Made by a program: the position numbers and the translations under genes. A stretch of 26,926 nt of DNA from a virus. The DNA lies in IMG/VR virus record IMGVR_UViG_3300046170_000370, positions 1 to 26,926 of that record. The stretch is one strand, 5' to 3'. How positions within the stretch are numbered: position 1 is the stretch's first letter; each line of letters opens with the position of its first letter. The notes under the pieces are model-generated. The model had not been told where the DNA came from, searched no databases, and was given only the letters and a program-made list of their open reading frames with translations. Below, one piece after another: positions 15,453-26,926 of this stretch.

Positions 15453-15666
15453 GCTATTTTTCTTTGAAGGTCGTAACACTGGTATCTATGCTGAGTCTGC
15501 CGCCGCCGCTAGAGCTAAGTGCAAGCGGGGATGTGGCAAGCTGGTTAAGACTCTAAACAAAACCCCACCTAAGAGTGGGGCATGGGATAGAACTAGGAAG
15601 GATGGAAAGTCCCCCGCCAAATCCTCAGTAGGAAAAGGCAGGGGCTATGGGCCTAAGAGGAAGTAG
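15445..15666 (+). CDS. Small basic protein ending the late operon
   Basis: A 73-residue, strongly basic protein (MAKLFFFEGRNTG ... GKGRGYGPKRK) with two cysteines (KCKRGCGK). It overlaps the ejection-protein stop by eight bases and has GGAG seven bases before the ATG, so it is coupled to that gene. The Lys/Arg/Gly-rich tail suggests nucleic-acid binding; I do not recognise a family. It is the last rightward late gene and touches, without a gap, the end of a leftward gene. A hairpin with T-run on the opposite strand lies within it. Confidence 0.55.
   Translation: MAKLFFFEGRNTGIYAESAAAARAKCKRGCGKLVKTLNKTPPKSGAWDRTRKDGKSPAKSSVGKGRGYGPKRK
15559..15580 (-). terminator. Rho-independent terminator of the leftward early operon, inside the last late gene
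   Basis: Read on the minus strand: CCCCAC, loop TCTTAG, GTGGGG, then TTTTGTTT. The six-base stem is perfect and GC-rich and is followed at once by a T-tract. It lies about 90-100 bases beyond the last leftward gene (stop at 15667), so it would end that transcript after crossing the convergence point. On the plus strand it is not followed by Ts. Confidence 0.65.
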
Positions 15667-15870
15667 TTAGTGCATATCTACCAGACTAACTGCATTCTCT
15701 ATATACCCATTGAGTGCTTCATCTCCAATTTCATGGGTCAGCTTTATCTCCACTATCCTAAGTGCGTTAGCTAGCTTAAGCTCATGACGTATTCTTTCTA
15801 GCCATTCAGCAATAGACTCTTCGCTACCGTTGGCGAGTGCTTTCTCAATATCAATTAAATGCTGTTCCAT
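15667..15870 (-). CDS. Small acidic helical protein
   Basis: A 67-residue protein starting MEQHLIDIEKALANGSEES. AAAGGAG is placed eight bases before this ATG, so I prefer it to an in-frame ATG 13 codons upstream. It is acidic and mostly helical (SIAEWLERIRHELKLANALR). No family recognised. Last gene of the leftward early operon; its stop codon abuts the stop of the rightward operon. It starts one base after the stop of the upstream 52-residue gene. Confidence 0.6.
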   Translation of the reverse strand: MEQHLIDIEKALANGSEESIAEWLERIRHELKLANALRIVEIKLTHEIGDEALNGYIENAVSLVDMH

Positions 15871-15871
15871 T

Positions 15872-16030
15872 TTACTGCTCCTTTCTATATCCCTGTGAAT
15901 AAAGCTCAATCAATTCCACCAGCTCAGCCGGTGGGGTTTTATCTTTGGGGTGTTCAATGATAACGGCGAATATAATCTTGCCGTCTTCGTCGCCAAACCA
16001 CCATGTCTTGTCTGTCCATCCTTCAATCAT
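15872..16030 (-). CDS. Small acidic protein, 52 residues
   Basis: Begins MIEGWTDKTWWFGDEDGKII and ends YSQGYRKEQ. The ATG overlaps the stop of the upstream nuclease gene as TAATG, a common coupling arrangement, and its stop TAA is one base before the next ATG, with the next gene's ribosome site (AAAGGAG) inside its last codons. The tight fit on both sides supports it as a real gene. Function unknown. It is unusually rich in tryptophan at its start. Confidence 0.6.
   Translation of the reverse strand: MIEGWTDKTWWFGDEDGKIIFAVIIEHPKDKTPPAELVELIELYSQGYRKEQ
15916..15943 (+). terminator. Possible terminator of the rightward late operon, inside a leftward gene
   Basis: On the plus strand CCACC (15916-15920), a nine-base loop and GGTGG (15930-15934) are followed by GGTTTTATCTTT. 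The stem is only five bases, so this is weaker than its counterpart at 15559-15580. It lies about 250 bases beyond the last late gene. Confidence 0.4.
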
Positions 16031-16554
16031 TAGCTAGCCACCGCCATATGTTTTTGTATGTGAAGACGCCATAGCTTTTCGATTGGGTCTAGCTGTTCTG
16101 CGTCAACCACATATCGTTCGCCATATCCAAAGTCATGTCTGTATGCTTTCTCAAAGAACGTCTTTCTGCTGATACATCCGTGTAGCTTGAAGGTTCTGGG
16201 GTCACTTTTTGATTGCCCATAGGCAACAGCGATGTTTGCTGTGAACTTATCTGGTGAGTCAAAGATGAGGGGGCCGTCTTCTTTACAAGAACACTTCACA
16301 TCAATGGAGTACTCACCAAGCCAGAAATCTATCTGTCCATCTGAAAGGACATTCACCACAGGAGGGGGTAGGTCAAACAAGCGGGCAAACAGAAACTCTG
16401 CCTTGAAGCCCCTTATGTTGTTCTCTGTCCTGCTAGCCATACCTTTTTCATCAGCAAGCCTGGGTGTTATTCCCTGTAACTCGCACAGCTTCACAGTGTC
16501 AGCGCCCATAAGCTCTGCATCGTGATTGTCTTTGGCTGTGAGCGTAAAGAACAT
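16030..16554 (-). CDS. Putative PD-(D/E)XK-type nuclease
   Basis: A 174-residue protein with the layout of a small restriction-like nuclease: an acidic residue in a helix (GFKAEFLFARLF, E53), then an Asp (GQIDFW, D76), then a strand ending Asp-x-Lys (YSIDVKCS, D85 and K87). In the PD-(D/E)XK fold these residues bind metal and cleave DNA. The place among recombination and replication genes fits a resolvase, exonuclease or nicking role. The ATG immediately follows the stop of the HNH gene with a one-base overlap; its stop overlaps the next gene (TAATG). It is motif-based; a non-nuclease member of the fold is possible. Confidence 0.55.
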   Translation of the reverse strand: MFFTLTAKDNHDAELMGADTVKLCELQGITPRLADEKGMASRTENNIRGFKAEFLFARLFDLPPPVVNVLSDGQIDFWLGEYSIDVKCSCKEDGPLIFDSPDKFTANIAVAYGQSKSDPRTFKLHGCISRKTFFEKAYRHDFGYGERYVVDAEQLDPIEKLWRLHIQKHMAVAS

Positions 16555-16937
16555 CAGTTGTAGCTCACTATGTCGTAGTCTGGATCGGCCTCAGCCTTAC
16601 GGAACTCAGTCCGGTAGTGGTCACTGATCTCTTTACGGAGGAGCTTGTTGGTTTTGAGGGTGGCGTTGGCTTTCTCGCGCAGGATGTCCATGTGACCCTG
16701 TCCGTATAGCTTGGTCAGCCAATCAGTGAAGGCGACAGGGTTGGAGCCGAACCACTGGTGGTGATAGCGGCAGAGGGTTACGGCGTTGTCCATGCTCCAG
16801 CGCACAGACTTCTTGGCTCGTCCATATATATGAGCGCAGTCAGTCCCTTCATTAAAGCAGTACTGACAGCGGTGCTGGTCGCGGTGACGAACAGACTTGC
16901 TGAACCAGTTATCGCAGGCTTCACGCTTCACAGCCAT
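16554..16937 (-). CDS. HNH / NinG (Rap)-like endonuclease
   Basis: A 127-residue zinc-binding protein. The pattern is CDNWFSKSVRHRD, then CQYC (C24, C27), CAHIYGR (C34, H36), SVRW-MDNAVTLC--HH (N51, C56, H59, H60). This matches NinG/Rap and related HNH recombination nucleases, which cut branched DNA or stimulate recombination; the CDxxFS...R start is typical of NinG. The C-terminal half is basic and helical. It is located next to a PD-(D/E)XK-type gene and the NinB-neighbourhood gene, as in lambdoid nin regions. Ten bases overlap the upstream small membrane-protein gene. A homing endonuclease is less likely because the gene is in a tight operon. Confidence 0.65.
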   Translation of the reverse strand: MAVKREACDNWFSKSVRHRDQHRCQYCFNEGTDCAHIYGRAKKSVRWSMDNAVTLCRYHHQWFGSNPVAFTDWLTKLYGQGHMDILREKANATLKTNKLLRKEISDHYRTEFRKAEADPDYDIVSYN

Positions 16938-17053
16938 GTGTACACCTCCAAAAAGACAGTCATCGCTATGACCGCCACAAGAGCCATCAGGGCCTCGTTC
17001 TCTTTAGCCATAGTCAGGTACTCCCTTAGTACTTTTGTTCTAGGACGGGGCAT
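16928..17053 (-). CDS. Small single-pass membrane protein, 41 residues
   Basis: Begins MPRPRTKVLREYL and contains one hydrophobic helix near the C-terminus (ALMALVAVIAMTVFLEVYTW), so it is probably an inner-membrane protein with a basic cytoplasmic N-terminus. AGGAG lies seven bases before this ATG; an internal start at MAKENEAL would keep the membrane segment. It overlaps the following HNH gene by ten bases. Such small early membrane proteins in phages can be holin-like, exclusion-related or of unknown role; nothing here decides. Confidence 0.5.
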   Translation of the reverse strand: MPRPRTKVLREYLTMAKENEALMALVAVIAMTVFLEVYTWL

Positions 17054-17100
17054 TGATGAACTCCTGAGAGGGGATGGGAACCAGTACCCCGGTGTTGCGA

Positions 17101-17460
17101 TTAACTGCATCCACTAAGATGTCCATTGATTCTGATAGTTGCTGCTGTATCTAGCAGGCTACTGCGCTCTACCTTGAAGTAGCTGGTGATGATTGGCTTG
17201 TATAAGAGTTCCTTAATGGAATGCTCTGACCAGGGTATCTCCAAGTCGGGCTTGAAGGGGTGGCTAATCTCAAACCCTGCATCATTCAAGGCGCTAGCCA
17301 TGTTCCTAAACAACAGGTGAAGCGCATTATTTTGTCGGTATGTCCTATCCATTTTCTGGATGGTGTACACCCGATCAATCCTTTGCTCGACCTGATCCTC
17401 AATGTAAGCAATGAAAAACTTAGCCGTGTTGCTGTCTTTCACTGTCCATGTCTGGCTCAT
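17101..17460 (-). CDS. Conserved phage recombination-module protein (NinB-neighbourhood type), C-terminus frame disrupted
   Basis: A protein of 119 residues as read. The segment RTYRQNNALHLLFRNMASAL, then KPDLEIPWSEHSIKELLYKP, is typical of a phage family found beside NinB/NinG-like genes in recombination modules; its activity is not known to me. The present end (ATIRINGHLSGCS) does not look like that family. In the +1 frame the minus strand reads QQLSESMDILVDAVNRNTGV then LVPIPSQEFINAPS, stop at 17040; this resembles the expected end. One extra base near 17135-17150 (minus strand ATACAGC) would explain the break. GGAGG lies just before the ATG at 17460. The last 41 bases of the upstream gene overlap its start. 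Confidence 0.6.
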   Translation of the reverse strand: MSQTWTVKDSNTAKFFIAYIEDQVEQRIDRVYTIQKMDRTYRQNNALHLLFRNMASALNDAGFEISHPFKPDLEIPWSEHSIKELLYKPIITSYFKVERSSLLDTAATIRINGHLSGCS

Positions 17461-17713
17461 GTGTCCTCCAAGCTCTTGTTAACCACTGCTTACGCCACGT
17501 TAGGTTCTCGTACACGGCATGTCCTGATACACCTATCTCGTTCTTTGGCTGAAACAAAACCACGATAACGTCATTCTGCTGGCCCATAACGATGGCCTGC
17601 CTCGCCCTACTGGTAGGCCATTCAAAGCGCGCCTCTACATCTTTGATGGTGAATCTTCTTGGGAAGGCCGCGAGGATTTTGTTGATGTCTTCTAAAGCCG
17701 TACCATTAGACAT
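17420..17713 (-). CDS. Small protein with possible winged-helix DNA-binding region
   Basis: A 97-residue protein beginning MSNGTALEDINKILAAFP. Residues 19-45 (RRFTIKDVEARFEWPTSRARQAI) look like a helix-turn-helix or winged-helix segment, followed by two strands (VIVVLFQP). It might regulate or support replication initiation; there is no recognised family. GGAGG nine bases before the ATG supports this start over an upstream in-frame ATG. The C-terminal 41 bases overlap the following gene; it overlaps the short ORF upstream by eight bases. It is in the leftward early operon next to a helicase-loader-like gene. Confidence 0.5.
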   Translation of the reverse strand: MSNGTALEDINKILAAFPRRFTIKDVEARFEWPTSRARQAIVMGQQNDVIVVLFQPKNEIGVSGHAVYENLTWRKQWLTRAWRTHEPDMDSERQQHG

Positions 17714-17795
17714 CGCCCCACACCTCCCGCAACTTGTATGCCTGCGGGATAGCTTCTGGTGTGCGAGTTCGTTTGGCTTCACGGTTGACGGTCAT
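17706..17795 (-). CDS. Very short ORF between loader-like and winged-helix genes
   Basis: Codes for 29 residues (MTVNREAKRTRTPEAIPQAY...). Evidence is modest: it fills the only gap in the operon, ends eight bases into the next gene (GATGTCTAA), and the Arg/Lys-rich composition looks protein-like. The ribosome site is poor (GAGG 11 bases before ATG). An upstream alternative start does not exist in this frame. Could be noncoding. Confidence 0.35.
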   Translation of the reverse strand: MTVNREAKRTRTPEAIPQAYKLREVWGDV

Positions 17796-17838
17796 TAGGT
17801 ATTCGTCCTCTTTCTCATGGTGATCTACGACTTCTGTG

Positions 17839-18168
17839 CTAGGTCACGGGCAAAGCCTGACCCCAGAATTTTGGAATCCAGTATCTCCACGCATCAGCTA
17901 TATGGGGCGGGCAGTCGGTAGTTAATTCTTTAGGGGCTGGCGCTTTGGCTTGGGTGTGCTGGCGCTCTTCTGCCAGCATCTCCAATATCTCAGGCGGTTT
18001 AGGTGCGAACTTCCCTATCTGGAAATAGTTTTTTAGGACGGCCTGCCACTGCACTGAGGTATAACTATTAGAGCGTATGATGCTCTGCCATACCTGTAGC
18101 TGTTGCTTGTCTAGCACCTTTCCGTAAAAGCTAAAGCAGTATTTAAGGGCGAACATTACATCGCCCAT
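17839..18168 (-). CDS. Helicase-loader-like (G39P-type) replication protein
   Basis: A 109-residue protein. The N-terminal helices VMFALKYCFSFYGKVLDKQQLQVWQS... and VQWQAVLKNYFQIGKFAPKPPEI resemble phage helicase loader/inhibitor proteins of the G39P type: a tyrosine-phenylalanine helix, a tryptophan helix, and a closing (F)xPxPxEI motif. Such proteins bring host or phage DnaB to the origin. There is no phage helicase in this window, so host DnaB would be the partner. I chose the ATG at 18168, four bases after the stop of the upstream gene, over GTG 18183, which lies inside that gene; a GGAG stands right against the ATG, so re-initiation is likely. Low-level similarity only. Confidence 0.45.
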   Translation of the reverse strand: MGDVMFALKYCFSFYGKVLDKQQLQVWQSIIRSNSYTSVQWQAVLKNYFQIGKFAPKPPEILEMLAEERQHTQAKAPAPKELTTDCPPHIADAWRYWIPKFWGQALPVT

Positions 18169-18172
18169 CTCC

Positions 18173-18349
18173 TTACTCTGCACGTTCTATTGCATTCGTA
18201 AGTATGTGTTCAAGATCTAGCAACTGCCCGTATTCTACTTGGCCTGATGTCAGGTCAGAAGATGAGCTGGTTGAATTGACTTTGGCAAGCCGCTCTTGAA
18301 CTAAGAGTAGAAGGTGAAATTCTTGGGTCGAGTCAGTGTGAATTGTCAC
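18173..18349 (-). CDS. First leftward early gene, small GTG-start protein
   Basis: A 58-residue protein, MTIHTDSTQEFHLLLLVQER ... EHILTNAIERAE, read from GTG at 18349. GGAGG is placed ten bases before the GTG and there is no other good start. It is the first gene after the divergent control region and its stop leads into the next gene (TAAGGAG-ATG). The position is where a Cro-like or early regulator would sit, but no helix-turn-helix is visible. Function unknown. Confidence 0.5.
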   Translation of the reverse strand: MTIHTDSTQEFHLLLLVQERLAKVNSTSSSSDLTSGQVEYGQLLDLEHILTNAIERAE

Positions 18350-18426
18350 GTTAAATATGCCTCCTGTTACGCTTGCTTACAGCTTACTCTACCTCGGTAA
18401 TAAGCACAAGAGGAATACTGTATGTC

Positions 18427-18476
18427 TGTATACTATTGCTACGCGTCGTTGTAGCGTAGTATTTTGATGCTATGTA
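18427..18476. promoter_or_regulatory. Divergent promoter/operator of the lysis-lysogeny switch
   Basis: An inverted repeat CTACGC-N9-GCGTAG (18439-18459), with a wider dyad TACTA...TAGTA around it, is a good operator candidate for the adjacent Xre protein. A rightward promoter candidate has -35 TTGTAG (18449-18454), spacer 16, and -10 TATGTA (18471-18476), 25 bases before the repressor ATG; the -35 box lies within the repeat. A leftward -10, TATACA (minus strand 18432-18427), has only a weak -35 at GCTACA. Shared binding would let the repressor act on both directions. Confidence 0.55.
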
Positions 18477-18501
18477 ACATTTGTCAAACGAGGATTCACC
18501 C

Positions 18502-18834
18502 ATGAACTACGGCTCGCACTTTCAGCTAAACCTGGATCAATATATGAAGCGCGAGAACATATCGCACAACTCCATCGCAAAAAAGACAGGCGTATCTCAG
18601 AAAACGGTATGGTCTGTTGCAAGCGGGAGGTCAACCCCCACCTTGAACACGGCTCAGATAGTAGCTGATGCAGTAGGCGTTGACGCTAGGGTTTTGCTTG
18701 GCAGTCAATTGACTACAGAACAGGTGGGAAGGTCACAGCGAATAGGTAGAATGCTGGATCAAATCATTGTGCTAAACAATGAGCAGATTGCTACACTAAA
18801 CGGAGTCTTAAAGGCTTTTACTAGCACAGAATAG
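18502..18834 (+). CDS. Xre-family helix-turn-helix repressor
   Basis: A 110-residue protein with a helix-turn-helix domain at about residues 12-62: LDQYMKRENISHNSIAKKTG, VSQKTVWSVASGRSTPTLNT, AQIVADAVGV. Xre-type regulators bind operator dyads as dimers. The C-terminal 40 residues (ERIGRMLDQIIVLNNEQIATLNGVLKAF-like helix) may serve dimerisation; there is no LexA-like protease domain, so RecA-driven self-cleavage is not expected. GAGG lies eight bases before ATG 18502. It faces the leftward early operon across the control region and is followed by a strong terminator. It could be the CI-type repressor or the Cro-type regulator; lacking other candidates I favour repressor. Confidence 0.75.
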   Translation: MNYGSHFQLNLDQYMKRENISHNSIAKKTGVSQKTVWSVASGRSTPTLNTAQIVADAVGVDARVLLGSQLTTEQVGRSQRIGRMLDQIIVLNNEQIATLNGVLKAFTSTE

Positions 18835-18853
18835 CTTGCAATAGCATCATACT

Positions 18854-18887
18854 GCCTGTTAGCATTACGTTAACGGGCTATTTTTTT
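18854..18887 (+). terminator. Rho-independent terminator after the repressor gene
   Basis: GCCTGTTA (18854-18861), nine-base loop, TAACGGGC (18871-18878), then TATTTTTTT. The stem is eight pairs with one G-T. The same GGGC can instead pair with GCCC at 18888-18891 around the T-run, a weak alternative fold. The next ATG follows 23 bases after the T-run. Confidence 0.8.
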
Positions 18888-18910
18888 GCCCATTGTTAGG
18901 ACAAGAAGGA

Positions 18911-19573
18911 ATGAATGCAAAAGCAAACATAGATATACCGCCTGAGATTATTGAAAGGCTCAAGGCGGTAGGCGAGACATCAGCCACTGCGCTGTGGGAT
19001 TGCCACGGTAACTGGATCATTAAGCACAAGGCGCTGGAGAAGATTGCCACCAACGCTGGCATTACTTATTCCGACTGCACCGTGTACCCGCCACAACCTG
19101 GACAGGAACACTTTGCCGTTAGCCTGATCGGTCACCTCGGTGATCGCAGTGAGTGGAGCATTGGCGAGGCATCTCCTAAGAACTCTAAGAATAACTACTA
19201 CTTTGCAATGGCTGAGAAGCGCGCCAAAGACAGGGTGATTCTTAAGTTGCTGGGCCTGCACGCCTACATCTACAGCGAAGAAGAAGCTGATGAGTTTAAA
19301 GAGGCGGCCCCGTCTGGCGATGACTTCTTGCTAGAGCATTCCAATGCTGTGCGCGAGAACATCGAAGATGTGTACCGAATCAAAGAGTGTATCGCTAACG
19401 ATGACATGGAAGGTGCGGCTGGCTACTACGCCGACATGACTCGTGAGGTACAGGTCGCACTGTGGAAAGCCCCCAGTAAGGGTGGTGTATGGACAACCGA
19501 AGAACGCAGGCTAATGTCTGCTGACGGTGAGCTTGCCAAGTTAATTGCCAAGATGAAGAAGGAGAAAGCATGA
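18911..19573 (+). CDS. Putative single-strand annealing recombinase (Rad52/ERF-like)
   Basis: A 220-residue protein. Residues 30-130 contain a pattern found in phage single-strand-annealing proteins of the Rad52/ERF group: a WIIKHKALEKIA strand-helix, a GDRSEWSIGEAS segment, and NNYYFAMAEKRAKDRVILKL followed by (H)AYIYSEEEAD. The helix with MAEKRAxDRxxLKLxG and Ser-Glu-Glu-(E)-A-D is the most diagnostic. The protein would coat and anneal ssDNA in phage recombination and late replication. ATG 18911 is preceded by AGGA at a good distance. Its stop overlaps the next start (GCATGA), so it is coupled to the SSB-tail gene. Related hypotheticals often lie beside SSB-like genes, as here. Confidence 0.55.
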   Translation: MNAKANIDIPPEIIERLKAVGETSATALWDCHGNWIIKHKALEKIATNAGITYSDCTVYPPQPGQEHFAVSLIGHLGDRSEWSIGEASPKNSKNNYYFAMAEKRAKDRVILKLLGLHAYIYSEEEADEFKEAAPSGDDFLLEHSNAVRENIEDVYRIKECIANDDMEGAAGYYADMTREVQVALWKAPSKGGVWTTEERRLMSADGELAKLIAKMKKEKA

Positions 19574-19902
19574 GCGATGATCGCAAACCACTACCGGAGA
19601 CAGGGTTCCGGTGCTATCCGGCTAAGCCTGAGAAGATAACGTGCAACATGGTTATCTTGATTGACGAAATGATTAGTTGGTTGACAGCGGAACGAGCAAG
19701 ACGGAGCCAACATAAAGAAAGACGGCAAGGTCAGGACATCATTACGTCTGACCATGGCAGAAACCACCAAGCAGGACGCCAAGACTATCTCACTCTTTCG
19801 TACGATGACTTTGAACCCAGCAATAAAGGCGGTGGGCATCAACAATCAAGCAATAACGTCACCCCTATGCCACCTGTAGGTGATGGAGACATTCCTTTCT
19901 GA
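19570..19902 (+). CDS. SSB-tail protein, frame probably disrupted three times
   Basis: A 110-residue reading with C-terminal tail PPVGDGDIPF, the hallmark acidic tip with which SSB proteins bind partner enzymes, preceded by Gln/Ser/Gly linker. The upstream part, residues about 38-72 (AERARRSQHKERRQGQDI), is atypical. If single missing Gs are assumed at about 19680 (TGG), 19700 (AAG) and 19783 (AAG), the sequence runs EMISW-VDSGTSK-DGANIKKDGKV... TKQDAK-DYLTLSYDDFEPS, a much more protein-like strand pattern. Three such losses return to the starting frame. Start is coupled to the preceding recombinase by ATGA. Function: single-strand binding or an SSB mimic. The frameshift reading is my inference. 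Confidence 0.5.
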   Translation: MSDDRKPLPETGFRCYPAKPEKITCNMVILIDEMISWLTAERARRSQHKERRQGQDIITSDHGRNHQAGRQDYLTLSYDDFEPSNKGGGHQQSSNNVTPMPPVGDGDIPF

Positions 19903-19928
19903 TCACTCACTCCTCAAGAGTGGACTTT

Positions 19929-19965
19929 AGGGGGGTTCGGTCGAGTCGGCCCCTCTCTTTTTATT
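19929..19965 (+). terminator. Possible terminator after the recombinase-SSB pair
   Basis: AGGGG (19929-19933) can pair with CCCCT (19950-19954), followed by CTCTTTTTATT. The loop of 16 bases is large and the stem short, so this is only plausible. It precedes the DUF4224-like gene by 15 bases. Confidence 0.4.
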
Positions 19966-19980
19966 AACCAGAGGTAAACC

Positions 19981-20187
19981 ATGAGTATTAAAGATAGTTT
20001 TATTCCATATGATGAACTGCTTGAACTCTTTGGGGTTCAGCGGGTCAATGCGCTGTTTCGATGCTTGAAGCAAAACAACATTAGCTTTATTTTAGACAAG
20101 CGTAACAAGCCATTAGTGTTGCGTAGCGCATTGGAAGGAACCGCTAGTGACCAGCCAGAGCAAGAGGAAACAGTCGTCTTTACCTAG
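19981..20187 (+). CDS. DUF4224-like protein adjacent to integrase
   Basis: A 68-residue protein, MSIKDSFIPYDELLELFGVQRVNALFRCLK, then NNISFILDKRNKPLVLRSAL. This is the pattern of small phage proteins (DUF4224 type) that lie just before integrase genes: a start helix, a helix-turn-helix-like segment, then a strand ending (P)LVxR. They may act as excisionase-like or regulatory partners; no activity is proven. AGAGGT precedes the ATG. Its last 41 bases overlap the integrase gene, implying coupled expression. Confidence 0.65.
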   Translation: MSIKDSFIPYDELLELFGVQRVNALFRCLKQNNISFILDKRNKPLVLRSALEGTASDQPEQEETVVFT

Positions 20188-21172
20188 GTATGTTAGCCGT
20201 GACCCACGTTATGGTGTTGTCTATCGCCCTTATTTAGGCAGGGCTAATGGGCAGATCAAGTGGGGCAAGCGGGTTAAGCTCGCATCTCATGGCGCATCTG
20301 ACTCTGAGATCTGGAAAGCCTACGAAGAATTAAAGGGCATTGAAGTACAGCCCTACACAATTAGCTGGCTTTTTTTTAAATACTTTGCGAGCAATAAGTT
20401 TAAGAAGAAAGCGCCTCGCACCCAGCAAGACTACAAGAACTACGCCAAGGCTATTGCCAACCGTGATGTTGGCGGCAAGTTGTTTGGCTCCCTGCCTCTC
20501 GCATCTGTTAAACGTGTCAGTATCCGCACCTATCTAGATACTGCATCTGCTCCTGTTCAAGCTAATCGGCAGATCACCTTCCTAAGTACAGCATGGAACT
20601 GGTTGGCTGAGTTTGATGAAAGCCTGCCTGCTAATCCAGCGCATCGCATCTCAAAGAATGAGGAATCCCCCAGGGATTTATATATTTCTGATGATGTGTA
20701 CCTCAAAGCCCGATCGCTAGCACCTGATTGGCTAGGCATTGCAATGGAGCTTGCTTACTGGTGTCGGGCCAGAAGGGGGGAGGTATTAGCCTTTACCTAT
20801 GATGACTATCAGGATGGTGGTTTGCATGTTCAACGCACAAAGAAATCTCAATCAGAGATCACCGTGTCTCAGCGTGTCACTGAACTAGTGGAGCAGAGCC
20901 TGCATCTCCCTCGCTCAGAGGGCTGTAATCACATCGTGAGAAACGCAAAGGGTCAGCCGGTAACTGAGTCCGGGTTTAATTCAGCGTGGCGTAGGCTTGC
21001 AACCAGGATGGGTGAGGATCACTTTCATTACCATGATTTGAAAGCTAAGGGCGTGTCAGATATGGAGGGTGAGCAGTGGGCAGGGCATCGTAGCAAGAAA
21101 GCGTTGGCTGTGTACCAGCGCAAGGCGCGGCGCATCTCCCCTGATTACGGTTCTCCTGTTACCTCACGATAA
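20147..21172 (+). CDS. int: Tyrosine-type site-specific integrase
   Basis: A 341-residue tyrosine recombinase for integration and excision. The N-terminal part (residues 1-60) should bind arm sites; residues about 75-165 are the core-binding SAM-like domain (TQQDYKNYAKAIANRDVG); the catalytic domain follows. Catalytic residues: R209 in CRARRGE, K232/K233 in the beta-hairpin, H296 in HDLK, H314 in AGH, and nucleophile Y323 in AVY. The position usually occupied by the second arginine is K299 (HDLKAKGVSD). Start is GTG 20147 inside the preceding gene; no better start exists before TISWLFF, and the protein would otherwise lack its arm domain. A tRNA-like core and arm-like repeats follow directly, as expected of an attP region. 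Confidence 0.85.
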   Translation: MTSQSKRKQSSLPRYVSRDPRYGVVYRPYLGRANGQIKWGKRVKLASHGASDSEIWKAYEELKGIEVQPYTISWLFFKYFASNKFKKKAPRTQQDYKNYAKAIANRDVGGKLFGSLPLASVKRVSIRTYLDTASAPVQANRQITFLSTAWNWLAEFDESLPANPAHRISKNEESPRDLYISDDVYLKARSLAPDWLGIAMELAYWCRARRGEVLAFTYDDYQDGGLHVQRTKKSQSEITVSQRVTELVEQSLHLPRSEGCNHIVRNAKGQPVTESGFNSAWRRLATRMGEDHFHYHDLKAKGVSDMEGEQWAGHRSKKALAVYQRKARRISPDYGSPVTSR

Positions 21173-21347
21173 GCTGAGAGTGGCGCGGAATGCAGGAGTC
21201 GAACCTGCGACCTTCGGTTTCGTAGTCAGGTGTTGATGTCTGTAAACCCGCGTGTTTACTGCATCTCCAGCAGGGCAGTGAGGTAACAAGCACAAAAGTA
21301 ATTAGTGTTAGGCCGCAGTAATACTGGGTTAAGGGGTATGAGGTAAC
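21158..21347. repeat. Arm-like repeats flanking the attachment core
   Basis: Three copies of a (G)TGAGGTAAC motif: inverted at 21158-21167 (GTTACCTCAC, at the end of int), direct at 21278-21287 (GTGAGGTAAC), and direct at 21339-21347 (TGAGGTAAC). They lie on both sides of the tRNA-like core, spaced about 110 and 60 bases. This arrangement suits arm-type binding sites for the integrase N-terminal domain. A partial fourth (TTTTACCTTA, about 21354) is doubtful. Confidence 0.6.
21181..21225 (-). other. attP: attP core resembling the 3' half of a tRNA gene, probably tRNA-Arg(ACG)
   Basis: On the minus strand these 45 bases read as the 3' part of a tRNA: anticodon loop CTACGAA (anticodon ACG), 3' anticodon stem ACCGA, variable AGGTC, T-stem GCAGG / CCTGC with loop TTCGACT, acceptor ATTCCGC, then G and CCA. 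The 5' half is missing: the sequence before the anticodon loop neither pairs nor shows a D arm, so this is not a functional tRNA gene. Phages often integrate into the 3' end of tRNA genes and carry this part so that the host gene is restored. It starts nine bases after the int stop. Anticodon identity depends on the match extending to the loop. Confidence 0.8.
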
Positions 21348-21402
21348 GGCTGTTTTACCTTAAAGGTGCTGGCATTTCGCTCCCGGGGGCCAGCTAACCC
21401 GG

Positions 21403-21440
21403 CAAAAGACCTGACCTACACACGGAGGCGATAGGTCAGG
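21403..21440 (-). terminator. Rho-independent terminator of the leftward ParB-like gene
   Basis: On the minus strand: CCTGACCTA (complement of 21432-21440), a 13-base loop, TAGGTCAGG (21410-21418), then TCTTTTGCC. The nine-pair stem is perfect. It lies 18 bases beyond the stop at 21458. The other strand lacks a T-run. It shields the attachment region from leftward transcripts. Confidence 0.8.
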
Positions 21441-21457
21441 CTGGCGAGGGTATGTTA

Positions 21458-22354
21458 TCAGTTAGATACACCAAAGCCGCCGTCTGATTTAATCCGGCGC
21501 TTGAACCCTGTCCAAGTTTTGATGTTCTCTCTTTCGTGCATTACATCCCATGCCAGATTAAAAGCATTGAGCATGGATTCTTTTGCATCTGCGTGGCGAC
21601 CAGTTGTGCCGCCCACTCCAGTTTCTTGCTGAGCCTGCCTTAGTTTCTGGCAGTAGCCAACCGCCCAGCCAGCCGCAATATGCGGAGCGGGATGGGCAAG
21701 CGGGTCAGCTAGGTATCCAAACAGATCAAGCGTTAGCTTGCTGTCGTTCTGATTCCACTGGAAGAAAATGTAATACAACAATGAGACCGGAACAGCCCCC
21801 TGGCATCCTTTGTAGGCTTTGTTGATTAGCCCTTTGTAGGCTTCCCATGTGGTTTTTATGTCCGGTTGATGACTTGCAACCCAATCAAAGATTGCGCCAT
21901 CTGACTCATTGAAAGCACCAGCGTGGGCATAGGGGTTGCCAGTGCCGCGCATCTCCAATGTCTTTTCGTATCGCCATAGCATCTTTGCTGTTACGTTTAA
22001 GACCGAAGGGTCGGGCCACTCTTGAATCACCATGATGTCTTTAAGGTCGCGGGTCTTACCTTGATCTATGAACTGAAACATCTCAGTGTTAATGCCTCGG
22101 CAAACCCAGATTCTTTGTGGTTTATCGGATAGCTGAATGGCATAGAGCCTGTGCTGTCCGTCTATCACCCTGCCTTTGGTGTCAATCTTAATTGTCTCAC
22201 CGGTGTCGGGATGCCAGTTGCCCGCCTTCATATCCTGAGCATATCGCTTCACGAATGATTGCGTTGCACCCCTGTTAACAAAGGATGCGGCTGTGTTTTC
22301 CAGCATCTCCCCTGCTTGCTTTGGGCTGATTGTTTCCGCTTTAAATGAAAGCAT
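21458..22354 (-). CDS. ParB/sulfiredoxin-like domain protein
   Basis: A 298-residue protein. GRVIDGQHRLYAI (residues 61-73) is the signature of the ParB/Srx superfamily (Asp-Gly-x-His-Arg), whose members bind nucleotides or DNA; phage homologues are often labelled ParB-like nuclease. Residues 35-60 (FVKRYAQDMKAGNWHPDTGE) precede it as usual, and the remaining 200 residues are helical with several Trp. Nuclease activity is not established. GGAG lies eight bases before the ATG at 22354; an upstream in-frame ATG has no such site. It is the last gene of the leftward cassette, followed by a strong terminator, and lies next to the attachment site. It could modulate phage DNA or host transcription. 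Confidence 0.65.
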   Translation of the reverse strand: MLSFKAETISPKQAGEMLENTAASFVNRGATQSFVKRYAQDMKAGNWHPDTGETIKIDTKGRVIDGQHRLYAIQLSDKPQRIWVCRGINTEMFQFIDQGKTRDLKDIMVIQEWPDPSVLNVTAKMLWRYEKTLEMRGTGNPYAHAGAFNESDGAIFDWVASHQPDIKTTWEAYKGLINKAYKGCQGAVPVSLLYYIFFQWNQNDSKLTLDLFGYLADPLAHPAPHIAAGWAVGYCQKLRQAQQETGVGGTTGRHADAKESMLNAFNLAWDVMHERENIKTWTGFKRRIKSDGGFGVSN

Positions 22355-22449
22355 AATTGCTTCTCCGTATTGCGGCCTGCGGCTATTGCCTGTGGCCTGT
22401 TGCAACCTAAAGGCTGGTTGCCCACCATCTCTGCGTATGCAGAAATTCT

Positions 22450-22719
22450 TTACGCCATTTCCCTCAGCGTGTTCACAACCTGGGATTTCTTTTCCTGCAT
22501 CTCCGCACGTTCTAAGCCGTTCTTAACTATGATGCTGGCTCGGACATTGGCCTGATACATGGCCCAGTTTTTAAAAGCACAGCGCCGGAGTGTGTCTTTG
22601 CAATCAATCCTGTTATTAACTTTTAGGCGTTGCTCCATCTCTCGGGCGTGTCTTGCATAGTAGGCGGCACGATCCCTGATTAACTGGTGTGCCATCTGCA
22701 TCTCCGTTAGTGCGTCCAT
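22450..22719 (-). CDS. Small helical protein
   Basis: An 89-residue protein starting MDALTEMQMAHQLIRDRAA. It is basic and almost entirely helical (YARHAREMEQRLKVNNRI, AMYQANVRASIIVKNGLERA), with two cysteines. AAAGGAG lies eight bases before this ATG, so I prefer it to ATG 18 bases upstream. No family recognised. A hairpin with T-run lies between it and the zinc-ribbon gene upstream, so it may be expressed at a lower or separate level. Confidence 0.55.
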   Translation of the reverse strand: MDALTEMQMAHQLIRDRAAYYARHAREMEQRLKVNNRIDCKDTLRRCAFKNWAMYQANVRASIIVKNGLERAEMQEKKSQVVNTLREMA

Positions 22720-22741
22720 TGCATCTACTCCTTTCAAAAGT

Positions 22742-22766
22742 AAAACCCCCAGCTAAATAGGGGTGG
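22742..22766 (-). terminator. Possible intra-operon terminator/attenuator
   Basis: On the minus strand CCCC (complement of 22760-22763), loop TATTTAGCT, GGGG (22746-22750), then GTTTTACTTTTG. The stem is short but GC-only. It lies between the zinc-ribbon gene stop (22768) and the ribosome site of the next leftward gene. Confidence 0.5.
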
Positions 22767-22767
22767 G

Positions 22768-22935
22768 TTAGGCGCGGTCCTCGCAATCGATGCACACGCC
22801 GTCATCGTTGATAAATCCAGTTTCTTCTACCTCTCCGCACTCATCGCACTGGTTGAACCCATGCGGAATGTCGTCAGCACTGGGGCAGTGGGGGTGATGC
22901 GAGTTAACGCGCCCGCAATCGCCGCACATCTTCAC
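22768..22935 (-). CDS. Small zinc-ribbon protein
   Basis: A 55-residue protein, MKMCGDCGRVN ... QCDECGEVEE ... VCIDCED, containing three CxxC pairs plus His residues (NSHHPHC), so it should bind one or two zinc ions. GTG 22935 overlaps the preceding stop as GTGA and has GGAGG seven bases upstream; the ATG two codons later is a weaker choice because of spacing. Acidic overall. Small zinc ribbons in phage early regions are often regulators or adapters of host enzymes; nothing more specific can be said. Confidence 0.6.
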   Translation of the reverse strand: MKMCGDCGRVNSHHPHCPSADDIPHGFNQCDECGEVEETGFINDDGVCIDCEDRA

Positions 22936-23129
22936 GCCGCTACCTCCGCATCATCTCGCCGCTGTTCCAGTGTCTCTGCCTCTCCAATAATCTTCTGGCG
23001 GCAGGCTTCGGTAATGTCGCAGGGCAGTAACAGGGTGGGGAAACCACGCAACCAAAGTTGCGCGGCGTGGATTGAATCTGCTCGGTCATCTGCTGAAAGG
23101 TCGGCCCACTCTCTGAAATTAATTTGCAT
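22932..23129 (-). CDS. Small hypothetical protein
   Basis: A 65-residue protein, MQINFREWADLSADDRADSI ... EAETLEQRRDDAEVAA. GGAGG lies nine bases before the ATG and its stop overlaps the GTG of the next gene (GTGA). The acidic helical composition looks real, unlike the overlapping frame which reads as Pro/Cys/Arg-rich. No family recognised. It may be a small acidic regulator or inhibitor. Confidence 0.55.
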   Translation of the reverse strand: MQINFREWADLSADDRADSIHAAQLWLRGFPTLLLPCDITEACRQKIIGEAETLEQRRDDAEVAA

Positions 23130-23308
23130 GGTCGGCCACCTCCGTTTCTGTGTGGTGAAAGCGTGATGTGTTCGGCGTACCGGTAAAGCTGGTCACTGGG
23201 TATGCGGTGAGAGTCACGCCAGCAAACAAACGCACCGTCTGATTGCTCGCTCATCTCGCCGCCGCAGATATCGCAAAGGCATACGACTTTCGTGCTAGTG
23301 CTGGACAC
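22940..23308 (-). CDS. Small zinc-binding protein, 3' end uncertain
   Basis: From GTG 23308 the reading is MSSTSTKVVCLCDICGGEM ... GAFVCWRDSHRIP ... QLYRYAEHI. The CLCDIC...C(W)RDSH arrangement suggests a zinc finger. A run GAGGGGG precedes the GTG and the start overlaps the stop of the upstream frame. In this frame the ORF runs on to 22940, but after about 23150 it lies on top of the 65-residue gene and reads like noncoding sequence. In the +1 frame the sequence HHTETEVADHAN ends with TAA just inside that gene, a better coupling arrangement, so a one-base change near 23150 may have altered the end. The true product is probably about 60 residues. Confidence 0.4.
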   Translation of the reverse strand: MSSTSTKVVCLCDICGGEMSEQSDGAFVCWRDSHRIPSDQLYRYAEHITLSPHRNGGGRPCKLISESGPTFQQMTEQIQSTPRNFGCVVSPPCYCPATLPKPAARRLLERQRHWNSGEMMRR

Positions 23309-23624
23309 GGCTATCCCCCTCGGCGTAGGCCATAGAGTTAAGCAGGGTTTGTGTGCATCTAGCCGCAACACGGTATTGATGCCGGTGATTACGTAATACA
23401 GCTCGCGCGCTGTCATGCGGTAGTTTGTGATATCCATCTCGCCGCCGCTCTCGTTGCAGTAGCGGCACAGCTTATAACCGCCGTAGCTGTGGTCGATAAC
23501 GTAACGCTCTGGTATTGAGCGCCAGCGGCCTTCCTCATCTTTGCGGTATGTTTCCGCATCTCCGAAAATGGTGCGGTTTAGGTAGTCAACTTGTGCCTTG
23601 GCACATTGTCTTGGTGATTCTCAT
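23295..23624 (-). pseudogene. Probable zinc-finger gene with broken frame
   Basis: ATG 23624 overlaps the preceding stop (TAATG), then reads MRITKTM and stops after 12 codons. In the +1 frame the sequence continues as a convincing protein: CAKAQVDYLNRTIFGDAETY, EGRWRSIPERYVIDHSYGG, YKLCRYCNESGGE, then MDITNYRMTARELYYVITG. After LRLDAHK a second frame gives TLLNSMAYAEGDSRVQH and a stop at 23295. One extra base near 23605 and one missing A near 23345 (AAACCC) would unite these. An ATG at 23437 inside it could start a shorter protein. CxxC (CRYC) hints at zinc binding. Confidence is in a disrupted gene, not in the exact sites. Confidence 0.4.
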
Positions 23625-23746
23625 TAGAAGCCCCCCGTACAAATTACAAGCAGGGTGGTGGTGTTGGCTTCAAAGGTTATGCCGCGCTCCACTAGTCCAG
23701 CGCAAACCTGAGTCATTGATTCGATATCTTCACAGCGTATTTTCAT
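23624..23746 (-). CDS. Very small protein, 40 residues
   Basis: MKIRCEDIESMTQVCAGLVE ... TTTLLVICTGGF. AAAAGGAG lies eight bases before the ATG. The last codon overlaps the next ATG (TAATG). It has three cysteines and a hydrophobic end, but no clear membrane segment. No function can be assigned. Typical of densely packed early phage cassettes. Confidence 0.5.
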   Translation of the reverse strand: MKIRCEDIESMTQVCAGLVERGITFEANTTTLLVICTGGF

Positions 23747-23772
23747 TTCTTCATCTCCTTTTGAAAGATAGT

Positions 23773-23793
23773 GCCTGTTTTGAGGGGACAGGC
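23773..23793 (-). other. Leader hairpin upstream of the 40-residue gene
   Basis: GCCTGT (23773-23778) and ACAGGC (23788-23793) form a perfect six-pair stem with a nine-base loop. The hairpin lies about 20 bases upstream of the AAAAGGAG site. It follows a 12-codon ORF that begins with ATGA overlap at 23850. It could stabilise the mRNA end or insulate translation. Confidence 0.35.
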
Positions 23794-23846
23794 GGCCCAC
23801 CACGGATTAGCTTACGTAATCAATACCAGTGAACGAAATTCAGCAC

Positions 23847-24029
23847 TCATGATCGCACCCCCTTTGTTTGCAGTTCTTGGATCTGCTCAACTGCCGAGAT
23901 GTAATCTTTTCTTAGGTTGTGAAGTTCATACCTGAGTTCGCGGTTTTCTTCTGAGAGGCGAACGTACTCCGCCGTGATCTTCTCGTCTCGGCGCTGTTCC
24001 CATGTCTTTGCTCTAATGACTGCTGTCAT
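23847..24029 (-). CDS. Small coiled-coil protein, first gene of the leftward cassette
   Basis: A 60-residue protein, MTAVIRAKTWEQRRDEKITA then EYVRLSEENRELRYELHNLR and VEQIQELQ. Leucines and other hydrophobic residues recur in heptads from about residue 22 to 55, so it should form a coiled coil, perhaps a dimer with a basic N-terminus. GGAG lies eight bases before the ATG. It is the nearest gene to the large noncoding control region and is expected to be made early. A DNA-binding basic-zipper-like regulator is possible but unproven. Confidence 0.5.
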   Translation of the reverse strand: MTAVIRAKTWEQRRDEKITAEYVRLSEENRELRYELHNLRKDYISAVEQIQELQTKGVRS

Positions 24030-24074
24030 GATGTATCTCCGTGGTTAGAATTTATCGGGCAGGCTTTTGACCTA

Positions 24075-24095
24075 ACGAGTGAAACGAGTTCACTC
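24075..24095. repeat. Copy 1 of a 21-base hairpin repeat
   Basis: Identical over 21 bases to 24293-24313. Each copy holds GAGTGAA, a five-base loop ACGAG, and TTCACTC, a perfect seven-pair inverted repeat. Copy 1 lies 46 bases upstream of the leftward coiled-coil gene. Confidence 0.8.
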
Positions 24096-24292
24096 CGTCC
24101 GATGAACCTAGTATCTCAAATTACTTAGCACGATACTATGAATTATTACCACCCTGTTAGACCGTGTTACCCTATCAATAGGGGGGCTTATACCGTTTCG
24201 GTCTAGCACGAAATGCCTACCCTCGCCCTAATTACTGGGGTTGAATACAGACGGGATACAGGGTTCCCGTCGTGAGTCTTGGTACAACCCTG

Positions 24293-24313
24293 ACGAGTGA
24301 AACGAGTTCACTC
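24293..24313. repeat. Copy 2 of the 21-base hairpin repeat
   Basis: Identical to 24075-24095, 218 bases away and in the same orientation. The surrounding bases differ, so the identity is confined to the hairpin, as expected for a protein-binding or structured site rather than a recent large duplication. Confidence 0.8.
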
Positions 24314-24370
24314 AAGCCGGAGCATCCACCGTCATAAAGAGTGCAGTTATCAGGGCTTGCCCGCGCCTAT

Positions 24371-24441
24371 GTTAGTAACCACTAACCTGTTGGCGGCTCA
24401 GTGGTAAATCATTTTCCGATGGTAGGTTAGTAACCACTAAC
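24371..24441. repeat. Twin 16-base palindromes
   Basis: GTTAGTAACCACTAAC occurs at 24371-24386 and again at 24426-24441, 55 bases start to start (about five helical turns). Each is GTTAGT-AACC-ACTAAC, a perfect six-base dyad. Two dyads on the same face of the DNA suggest an operator pair for a dimeric repressor with looping or cooperativity, or origin iterons. Confidence 0.75.
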
Positions 24442-24508
24442 ATGGTCGTGGCTGGATAGCGTTAATAGTATTGGGTGGTTCCCGTCTCCACTCCCGCGTT
24501 TACCCAGC

Positions 24509-24549
24509 ACGGAGGTTTAAGGTTGCGCCGATGGCGCAGTTTTCTCCGT
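24509..24549 (+). other. Nested inverted repeats, possible terminator or structured RNA
   Basis: Outer arms ACGGAG (24509-24514) and CTCCGT (24544-24549) enclose an inner hairpin TGCGCC-GAT-GGCGCA (24524-24538) followed by GTTTTCT. The inner hairpin plus T-run could stop rightward transcription, although no rightward gene lies upstream; a small RNA or a protein/DNA recognition structure is possible. Confidence 0.4.
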
Positions 24550-24837
24550 CCTCGATCCTGCGGATCTGCGGTGAGCAGTCCAAACCGTACATCCACCAGC
24601 GTGGTTCCACCGGGGGGAGGGGGTGCATCGGCATCCCAGGCTGGAGGTGCCACCCAGATTTACTAGAGGTAAATTTCAGAAAAAAAAGGGAGGATACGTA
24701 GGTATTTAGTAATTAGGTGTTGGGGGATACTACGATTTTGCGGGGTTAGCGGGGAAGTTCCTGCGCTAAGTGTTCAGCGTACACCCCCTTGTCAAGTTTC
24801 CGCAAGTCTTTTTCGTAAAAAACTAGCACAATACCCC

Positions 24838-24866
24838 TTGCTTCGACTCTTATTCCTAATTACTAT
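24838..24866 (+). promoter_or_regulatory. Candidate promoter for the packaging operon
   Basis: -35 TTGCTT (24838-24843), spacer 17, -10 TACTAT (24861-24866), followed about 30 bases later by the first gene. An overlapping alternative is TTCGAC / TATATG. Matches are moderate to the sigma-70 consensus. No phage-type polymerase promoter was recognised. Confidence 0.45.
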
Positions 24867-24896
24867 ATGCATATCAAAATCAGGACTGCTGTATCC

Positions 24897-25133
24897 ATGT
24901 CTAGCACAGGTATGCTTGAAAAGAAGAGAATGCATCACGACCTTGTTGCTGGGGATGTGGAGCGTTTTCTAGCTGAGGGCGGTCAGATTACCCAGGTTAA
25001 TGAGCGGACTCCTGAGCAGGCTGACTGTGATTACTTCTTTGCTGGTGAGAAGAGGCAAAAGCATAGCCGCAGGATATCCCGCGAGTATGTGAGAGCCGCC
25101 AAAAAGAAGAAGCTGACCTTCAAAACCCTGTAG
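24897..25133 (+). CDS. Small basic protein before terminase genes
   Basis: A 78-residue protein from ATG 24897 (MSSTGMLEKKRMHHDLVAGD); an in-frame ATG at 24867 overlaps the promoter -10. The core GDVERFLAEGGQITQVNERT resembles short phage proteins with a (F)LxxGGxIxxV turn; the C-terminus is strongly basic (EYVRAAKKKKLTFKTL), so nucleic-acid binding is likely. AGGA lies 11 bases before the ATG. It precedes the small terminase by eight bases and is probably cotranscribed. A regulator of packaging or an early late-gene activator is only a guess. Confidence 0.5.
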   Translation: MSSTGMLEKKRMHHDLVAGDVERFLAEGGQITQVNERTPEQADCDYFFAGEKRQKHSRRISREYVRAAKKKKLTFKTL

Positions 25134-25141
25134 GGGGTTAT

Positions 25142-25537
25142 ATGGCTGACTTAGACGAAAAAGCCGCCGCCCATAAAGCTAAGCGTGAGGCGCGGAAAGC
25201 CAAGACCAAGGCCGGTCTAACTCATAATGACCTGAAAGCCCTGCCGGTTATGTCCCGCCGTAAGCAGACAGAGCGCCTGCATGAGCTAAAGGCTCAATTC
25301 CTATCTAACAAGAAACTCGGCCCCCTGGTTGAGAAGATGTTTGATATTGCAATGAACGATGAGCATGACGGTCAGATGCAAGCCATGAAGATGATTGCTG
25401 ACAAAATCCTGCCCACACAGTCCTTTTCTGCTGAATCTAAGAAATCCTCCGCAGTGCAAATCAACATATCTGGCCTACAAGTATCAGCTATAGAAGAAAA
25501 AGATATAAGCAAAGACGAGCCGGTGAGCATTCAGTAA
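25142..25537 (+). CDS. terS: Terminase small subunit
   Basis: A 131-residue protein directly before the large terminase, which is the main evidence. The N-terminus is basic and helical (AHKAKREARKAKTKAGLTHN), suited to DNA binding; the middle (LGPLVEKMFDIAMNDEHDGQ, MQAMKMIADKILPTQSF) is the part commonly conserved in podoviral small terminases. The tail is Lys/Glu-rich. It recognises the packaging site and presents DNA to the large subunit. AGGGGG precedes the ATG. It ends one base before the next gene. Confidence 0.7.
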   Translation: MADLDEKAAAHKAKREARKAKTKAGLTHNDLKALPVMSRRKQTERLHELKAQFLSNKKLGPLVEKMFDIAMNDEHDGQMQAMKMIADKILPTQSFSAESKKSSAVQINISGLQVSAIEEKDISKDEPVSIQ

Positions 25538-25538
25538 T

Positions 25539-26741
25539 ATGGCCTCATTAGACCTATCACTATTACCTTGGCAACAGACCGTAATGGAGTCTGATGCTCG
25601 TTTTAAGGTGGTAGCCGCTGGTCGCCGTACCGGTAAGTCCTACCTAGCCGCTATTTCTCTCATCCTAAAAGCCTTAGATGGGGAAGAAGGGAAGGTGTTT
25701 TATGTCGCGCCCACACAGGGGCAGGCACGGGACATCATGTGGCACACCATTTTTGACATAGCTGGTGAGATTATTGAGCGTAGCCATGTCAACAACCTAG
25801 AAATCACCCTAGCTGGTGGCAACACTATCTTCCTAAAGGGTGCTGACAGGCCCGACACCCTCCGTGGTGTCTCTCTTAAATACTTGGTTTTAGATGAGTA
25901 CGCATTCTGCAAGCCAGATGTATTCGACAACATCCTAAGACCCGCCTTAGCTGACAAGCAGGGTGACCTTTTAGCTATTGGAACACCTGAAGGCCGCAAC
26001 CACTTCTATGATATGTACATGGGTGCAGGCACATGGGATGGCTGGGAAGCCTTCCACTACACCTCATTTGATAACCCATTAGTTCCTAAGTCAGAGATTG
26101 AGCATGCAAGGCAGACCTTGCCGTCTTATGCCTTCCATCAAGAGTTTATGGCTAGCTTTGACGCCAGAACTGGATCGCTTTTTGACCCTGATAACTTCAT
26201 TTACCACGAAAAAGCCAATGAACCTGGAGATCACTATATCTCTATTGACTTGGCTGGCTTTAAACAACAGGGGCAGAGGAAGGCTAAGAAGCGTGATAAC
26301 TCCGCTATTGCCATCACTAAGGTCGCCCCATCAGGTAAGTGGTATGTAGAAGACATTATCTACGGTCAATGGTCACTGGATGAAACGTGCCAAAAGATAT
26401 TCGACGCAGTAGAAAAGTACAGACCCATAAAGGTAGGCATGGAAAGGGGTATTGCTCAACAAGCAGTCATGTCTCCTATGTCAGACCTGATGAGAAGGCG
26501 TGGACGATTGTTCCGCGTGGAACTCCTTACCCACGGCAACCAGAAAAAGGAAGACAGGATTGCGTGGGCGCTAGCGGGGCGCTTTGAGAACGGCATGATC
26601 TCTTTGAAAAAAGGAGATTGGAATGAGCGGTTTGTTGATGAGGCGTCAAATTTCCCCTCCACACTTGTCCATGATGACCTGATTGATGCCCTTGCATATT
26701 GCGACCAGATTGCACCAGATCGCTTACCTGGATGGCATTGA
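25539..26741 (+). CDS. terL: Terminase large subunit, ATPase and nuclease
   Basis: A 400-residue packaging motor. ATPase domain: Walker A GRRTGKS (28-34), Walker B YLVLDE (115-120), coupling motif GTPEG (148-152). Nuclease domain of RNase H type: D237 in SIDLAG, E302 in GMERG, and D379/D380 with D383 in HDDLIDAL. All main residues are present. The C-terminal tail after YCDQIA (PDRLPGWH) looks wrong: a near-duplicate of ten bases (26705-26714 and 26715-26724) shifts the frame, and removing one copy would give YCDQIAYLDGIELDDEWEPL, ending eight bases into the portal gene, as in typical phage operons. The conserved core is unaffected. The start follows the small subunit by one base. Confidence 0.92.
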   Translation: MASLDLSLLPWQQTVMESDARFKVVAAGRRTGKSYLAAISLILKALDGEEGKVFYVAPTQGQARDIMWHTIFDIAGEIIERSHVNNLEITLAGGNTIFLKGADRPDTLRGVSLKYLVLDEYAFCKPDVFDNILRPALADKQGDLLAIGTPEGRNHFYDMYMGAGTWDGWEAFHYTSFDNPLVPKSEIEHARQTLPSYAFHQEFMASFDARTGSLFDPDNFIYHEKANEPGDHYISIDLAGFKQQGQRKAKKRDNSAIAITKVAPSGKWYVEDIIYGQWSLDETCQKIFDAVEKYRPIKVGMERGIAQQAVMSPMSDLMRRRGRLFRVELLTHGNQKKEDRIAWALAGRFENGMISLKKGDWNERFVDEASNFPSTLVHDDLIDALAYCDQIAPDRLPGWH

Positions 26742-26796
26742 GCTAGATGATGAGTGGGAGCCCTTAGAAGACGCCGTGAGGATTTTAAATGGCTAA
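26686..26796 (+). pseudogene. Out-of-frame original C-terminus of the large terminase
   Basis: In a frame other than terL, IAYLDGIELDDEWEPLEDAV continues to TAA at 26796, overlapping the portal ATG by eight bases. Acidic, tryptophan and WEPL(D/E) endings are usual in this kind of terminase. Either it is the displaced tail of terL, or a separate 36-residue gene from ATG 26686. The first is more likely because the frame joins smoothly to YCDQIA when the ten-base near-repeat is collapsed. Confidence 0.55.
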
Positions 26797-26926
26797 ACTT
26801 GATAGCAAAGAACCTATTCTAGAACACCTTGGTGTAGAGCATGGCCTTGCAGAGTGGATGGAGGGCCTTCTTCAAGAGTGGAGATGGCACTATGAAGCCA
26901 ACTATGCTGACAAGCACGAAGAGTAC
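26789..26926 (+). CDS. Portal protein, 5' part only
   Basis: Open from ATG 26789 to the window edge, 46 codons: MAKLDSKEPILEHLGVEHGL then EWMEGLLQEWRWHYEANYAD. A helix rich in Trp and Glu followed by HYEANY...KHEEY is how podoviral portal proteins of marine phages begin, and position after terL fits. GAGG lies eight bases upstream of the ATG. The remaining roughly 500 residues are outside the window, so the assignment rests mainly on gene order. Confidence 0.6.
   Translation, partial: MAKLDSKEPILEHLGVEHGLAEWMEGLLQEWRWHYEANYADKHEEY

Follow-up and report, generated by a model that had tools for sequence, protein, structure and literature searches.

A predicted attP formed by the 3′ half of tRNA-Arg(ACG) in a phage probably infecting Luminiphilus-type marine bacteria

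The 45 bases that lie 8 bp beyond an integrase gene (int, whose stop codon ends at 21172) in the stretch of viral DNA analysed here (26,926 nucleotides, called the window) are very probably the core of the attachment site (attP) by which a temperate tailed phage would integrate into marine bacteria of the Luminiphilus type (Halieaceae, OM60/NOR5 clade). What is observed is the core itself, its identity with the ends of host tRNA genes, the repeats arranged around it, the int gene and phage DNA to either side (Table 1). An uncultivated phage group is in this way assigned, with probability rather than certainty, to Luminiphilus/Halieaceae, which are abundant coastal bacteria, and the predicted integration site is given exactly and can be tested by PCR.

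Table 1. Positions of the attP components and neighbouring genes in the window
Feature	Position	Strand	Basis
HTH_3 (cI/Cro-type) candidate repressor, 117 aa	18481..18834	+	PF01381
68-aa protein, candidate excisionase/directionality factor, overlaps int start	19981..20187	+	Position
int, tyrosine recombinase, 341 aa	20147..21172	+	PF00589, PHROG 1
Putative arm-type site 1, TGAGGTAAC, within last codons of int	21158..21166	-	Repeat count; kept in G002
attP core, 3′ half of tRNA-Arg(ACG)	21181..21225	-	45/45 identity with tRNA genes in 14 Halieaceae genomes
Anticodon loop CTACGAA, probable 7-bp overlap region	21219..21225	-	Phage/host identity stops at 5′ edge
Putative arm-type site 2, TGAGGTAAC	21279..21287	+	Repeat count; kept in G002
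Putative arm-type site 3, TGAGGTAAC	21339..21347	+	Repeat count; G002 comparison
First phage gene past attP, PHROG 5931 (unknown function)	21458..22405	-	Same place in G002

A 3′ half-tRNA and its counterpart in Halieaceae

Read on the minus strand, the 45-nt core (CTACGAA-ACCGA-AGGTC-GCAGG-TTCGACT-CCTGC-ATTCCGC-G-CCA) covers tRNA positions 32-76, with ACG as anticodon and the CCA encoded. It comprises the anticodon loop, the 3′ anticodon strand, the variable loop, an unbroken T arm with a perfect stem of 5 bp, the 3′ acceptor strand, the discriminator G and the CCA. The original prediction was that these bases are the 3′ half of a tRNA, probably tRNA-Arg(ACG), for which the matching 5′ half is missing, and both points were borne out. 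The core matches the ends of host genes at 45/45 positions in 14 genomes, and the 5′ half of the host tRNA is not present in the window, where its best ungapped match reaches 18/32 bases. A complete tRNA or tmRNA at the core is ruled out by this missing half together with ARAGORN, which called neither in the window, and Rfam, which gave no match there at gathering thresholds.

The host gene was sought by scanning the GTDB collection of species genomes (~85,000, bacterial and archaeal) for the exact 45-mer, the search that the original prediction had proposed. It occurred in 14 genomes, every one labelled Halieaceae or Luminiphilus, and in all 14 it formed the 3′ end of a complete 77-nt tRNA-Arg(ACG) as called by ARAGORN. 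Since the exact 45-mer was confined in this collection to that one group, and was always the end of a full tRNA-Arg(ACG) gene, the core is, on this distribution, a tRNA fragment and its match is not due to chance. A core allele changed at one base was found in five further Halieaceae genomes.

In each of the 14 hosts, identity with the phage runs from the last base of the CCA to the first base of the anticodon loop. Because identity stops at the 5′ edge of the loop, and because a crossover centred on the anticodon is a recognised subsite for tRNA-targeting integrases (PMC4383910), the anticodon loop is probably the overlap region of strand exchange. A search that tolerated up to 3 mismatches gave a single copy of the core in every one of the 14 genomes, so that the target, which had been predicted in general terms, can now be named: it appears to be the single-copy and presumably essential tRNA-Arg(ACG) gene of Luminiphilus/Halieaceae, integration itself being a prediction. 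The host loci apparently resemble unoccupied attB sites, because no integrase-like gene was seen downstream of the CCA among the ORFs listed for loci with readable flanks (translations judged by eye; the flanks of two loci stop at or near the CCA). The two cores of one genome (G093) were considered as an attL/attR pair and rejected, as they belong to two complete tRNAs on separate contigs. Separately, base 1 of one Halieaceae contig (VMDB01000048.1) falls precisely on the CCA end of tRNA-Arg(ACG). An assembly would branch at that point if the site were occupied, although chance may account for the position.

From the tRNA match, the phage probably infects Luminiphilus/Halieaceae. Since tRNA genes are conserved and the host claim rests on this match, a species-level assignment is impossible. 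A search of the open-access literature for work on Luminiphilus or Halieaceae phages found none.

Arm-type repeats, neighbouring genes and related phages

The 9-bp motif TGAGGTAAC is present in three copies in the window, where 0.16 would be expected, and all three lie within 190 bp around the core; none of 100 shuffled controls reached three copies. The copy at int is inverted and the two beyond the core are direct. Arm-type integrase sites are laid out in this inverted-core-direct order, and the repeats can be read as such sites, to which the integrase would bind.

The product of int matches PF00589 (1.1e-7, above the gathering score) and the PHROG 1 integrase (1.3e-33), and its residues R209, K232, H296, H314 and Y323, invariant in three relatives, are probably catalytic. 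The integrases of this clade read HDLK or HDIK at window positions 21031-21045 (int residues 295-299), placing a Lys at the position of the second catalytic Arg, where HxxR is usual in tyrosine recombinases. The 68-aa candidate excisionase had no match in Pfam; a similar ORF of 76 aa overlaps int in one relative (L063). The candidate repressor, upstream of int, matches PF01381 (2.8e-6, above the gathering score), and similar ORFs occur in G003, L061 and L063. Farther away, a 1394-aa protein (11268-15452) matched nothing in Pfam or PHROG and has a relative of 30-40% identity in G003.

A further motif, GCATCTCC, is concentrated in this region. Its 10 plus-strand copies all fall within 5.6 kb around int and attP (17976-23556), and 2 minus-strand copies lie elsewhere, against 1.0 expected on both strands of the window. 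Counted in the genome orientation of the window (plus/minus), it occurs 8/0 times in G003, 3/0 in G002 (L024) and 1/1 in L063, with none in L061 or L062. Since the copies are found in genes of both directions as well as between genes, codon use does not explain them, and on this pattern GCATCTCC is a strand-specific DNA motif.

IMG/VR contains one record that nearly duplicates the window (G001, 38.4 kb) and five further phage records that show the layout in part or whole. Their integrases are 74% (G002), 45% (G003) and about 45% (L061-L063) identical to that of the window, and each of the five carries, in one copy, only a tRNA-Arg(ACG) 3′ half and no full tRNA. The core of G003 is the identical 45-mer, around which the sequence differs from that of the window except for a TCAG that follows the core in both. 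The T stem reads ATAGG/CCTAT in G002 and AGAGG/CCTCT in L061, L062 and L063, so that the cores represent three tRNA alleles in which the T-stem changes are compensated. All T-stem pair cells (100%) are paired and 2/5 pairs are changed on both sides, as compared with 45-60% pairing in slid controls; with 4 distinct rows only, this covariation is supportive but comes from a small sample and is not a strong statistic. When the host 5′ half was joined in silico to a phage core, all three junctions were called tRNA-Arg(ACG) by ARAGORN. Hosts carrying the ATAGG and AGAGG alleles were not found among 140 genomes of the family, 392 of the order and 369 of the class, the latter two sets being even samples.

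The arm motifs differ among the records, with TGAGGTAAC in the window and G002, TGGGAGTGA in G003 and GTGGGATAA in L062 and L063. Despite this the order inverted-core-direct is constant, and the first far-side site stands 87-98 bp from the core start across these records. Between the window and G002 the arm repeats are retained, sites 2 and 3 being spaced 60 bp apart in both, while the surrounding DNA has diverged to about 70%. On the simplest reading of these comparisons, the core would track the host gene, and the arms the integrase. One could go further and suppose that attP is modular within one phage clade, the core being swapped or re-selected with the host species and the arms changing with the integrase in a fixed layout; we put this forward tentatively, as a possibility that is rather doubtful at present. 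If it were true, the core allele would be a readable record of host switches. The separate variation of core and arm parts seen in the related records could help to trace host changes.

The window and G001 are identical over bases 1-22749 and mosaic thereafter, with identity past 22750 of about 90% near 23 kb, about 100% to 25 kb and 74-77% over the terminase region, possibly as a result of strain recombination or of an assembly effect. At megablast sensitivity, the region 15000-26926 of the window had no DNA relatives among 50,697 sequenced phages.

Predicted integration and competing readings

In the mechanism that we propose, the arm sites to either side of the core would be occupied by the tyrosine integrase, and the core would recombine with the single tRNA-Arg(ACG) gene of the host (attB), strand exchange most likely taking place in the anticodon loop. 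The host promoter and 5′ half would thereby be joined to the identical phage-borne 3′ half, which would restore the tRNA, and the original host 3′ half would be moved to the other end of the prophage. After insertion, int would lie just past the 3′ end of the tRNA and convergent with it. Integrase binding, the position of the crossover, restoration of the tRNA in vivo and lysogeny are all deduced here from sequence.

Searches with the integrase and the terminase found no related prophage in 140 Halieaceae genomes, and thus no homologous prophage at another site, which would have argued against the predicted target. The integrase matches were of 26-28% identity only and lay beside tRNA-Lys, tRNA-Arg(CCG) or tRNA-Val; the best terminase match (44% over 213 aa, in G125) was on a short contig in which no attP was seen. 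Because all these matches are distant, they provide no integrated example by which the site could be supported or contradicted. The absence of prophages of this clade from the 140 genomes could also mean that the site works for integration but that the phage forms no stable lysogens. Lysogeny is indeed not to be assumed, because T7-like cyanophages, which share the layout of int followed by half a tRNA-Leu gene, integrate only transiently (PMC8776855). Those cyanophages, however, have no repressor homologue (PMC8776855), whereas here a cI/Cro-type HTH candidate repressor is encoded upstream of int and retained by relatives, which makes lysogeny more likely; moreover, most of the Halieaceae genomes searched are incomplete MAGs, and such assemblies often lack prophages. 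We therefore regard the lack of stable lysogens as unlikely, though deserving of consideration.

The original prediction also stated that the contig runs through attP with no junction to host DNA, so that the phage was sampled as a free or circular genome. The crossing is supported: attP has phage genes to either side, int, attP and the next gene follow one another as in G002, and the other records with the site cross it as well. The free state is well supported by the phage genes flanking attP, but circularity could be demonstrated only for a sibling, G003. The ends of that record (L025/L026) carry direct repeats of 136 bp within one gene, with one mismatch (99.3% identity), and its map closes at about 37.8 kb with attP inside. 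Judged from these ends, G003 is probably a complete genome and represents a non-integrated form that is either circular or terminally redundant; it is listed as linear in IMG/VR, probably owing to the mismatch. Exact end repeats were absent from the window, a 26.9-kb fragment, and from G001. The window by itself shows no more than that the molecule sampled differed from an ordinary single prophage.

A double prophage in tandem has an attP between its copies, as is established for lambda dilysogens. The contig could derive from such a lysogen or be chimeric, as the mosaic that follows 22.7 kb of exact identity with G001 makes assembly effects possible, and in either case the crossing of attP would be no proof of a free genome. 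This is very improbable, since other records have the core in their interior and the map of G003 can be closed with attP within it; an artefact at attP is unlikely because the PHROG 5931 gene is found at the same place in G002. Sequence cannot show that the integrase functions, and the core might then be left over from an earlier integration, or be a piece of tRNA that was captured, and be out of use. Against this, for which we see very little chance, stand the 45/45 identity to host genes, the intact int, the compensated T-stem alleles of relatives and the arm repeats kept amid divergence. Finally, the intact T arm and CCA could suggest a complete or split phage tRNA serving translation, but a window that lacks the 5′ half, an ARAGORN call and an Rfam match, and sister phages that likewise carry only the 3′ half, leave this next to no probability.

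Comparison with known tRNA-targeting elements

Known phage integrases, for example those of Escherichia phage Fostie and Salmonella phage ST64B, are alike in being tyrosine integrases and align over 88-91% of the query, at an identity of about 30-32% only. In mycobacteriophages of the Fionnbharth type, a core of ~10 bp, from which the tRNA is not rebuilt, is combined with a whole phage tRNA, and lysogeny is tRNA-dependent (PMC10865867). The phage described here resembles them in its tyrosine integrase, in a predicted attB that overlaps a presumably essential tRNA gene and in putative arm sites around the core (PMC10865867). It differs in that its core is of 45 bp and that no tRNA gene, of the same isotype or otherwise, lies within the window, the tRNA rather being expected to be restored at the junction; tRNA-dependent lysogeny of this type is excluded by the length of the core.

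A likeness is also found in the T7-like cyanophages P-SSP7 and S-TIP37, in which attP lies downstream of int and is identical to part of the host tRNA-Leu gene (PMC8776855). The position of attP, its identity with a host tRNA gene and the existence of allele groups among relatives are shared (PMC8776855). The cyanophages use tRNA-Leu, lack a repressor homologue and form no stable lysogens (PMC8776855), whereas this phage is predicted to use tRNA-Arg and encodes an HTH_3 protein as its candidate repressor. Marine phage contigs had their hosts named in 2013 from an integrase and an exact tRNA match of 39-46 bp, the authors cautioning that the tRNA match alone gives a broad assignment only (Mizuno et al., PMC3861242). 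Theirs matched tRNA-Leu of SAR11 and cyanobacteria and ours matches tRNA-Arg(ACG) of Halieaceae; beyond that work, putative arm sites and allele variants are mapped here, and the match stays within one family in the collection scanned.

More generally, tRNA genes are used by 30-50% of integrative islands, and the Islander set includes 2083 islands with anticodon-centred sites (PMC4383910). The present site shows what characterises the attP of a tRNA-targeting tyrosine integrase, namely an adjacent int, a tRNA fragment identical to that of the host, a tRNA that is rebuilt at the in-silico junction and putative arm sites. It resembles the class A sites of Islander (Williams 2002) in that the 3′ part of a tRNA gene, from anticodon loop to CCA, lies by int, attB is single-copy and the tRNA is expected to be restored; it shows no categorical difference from them, the distinction being a new host group in which no integrated example was found. 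This kind of attP is thus ordinary and already well understood; the novelty lies in assigning it to this host and in the small group of phages concerned.
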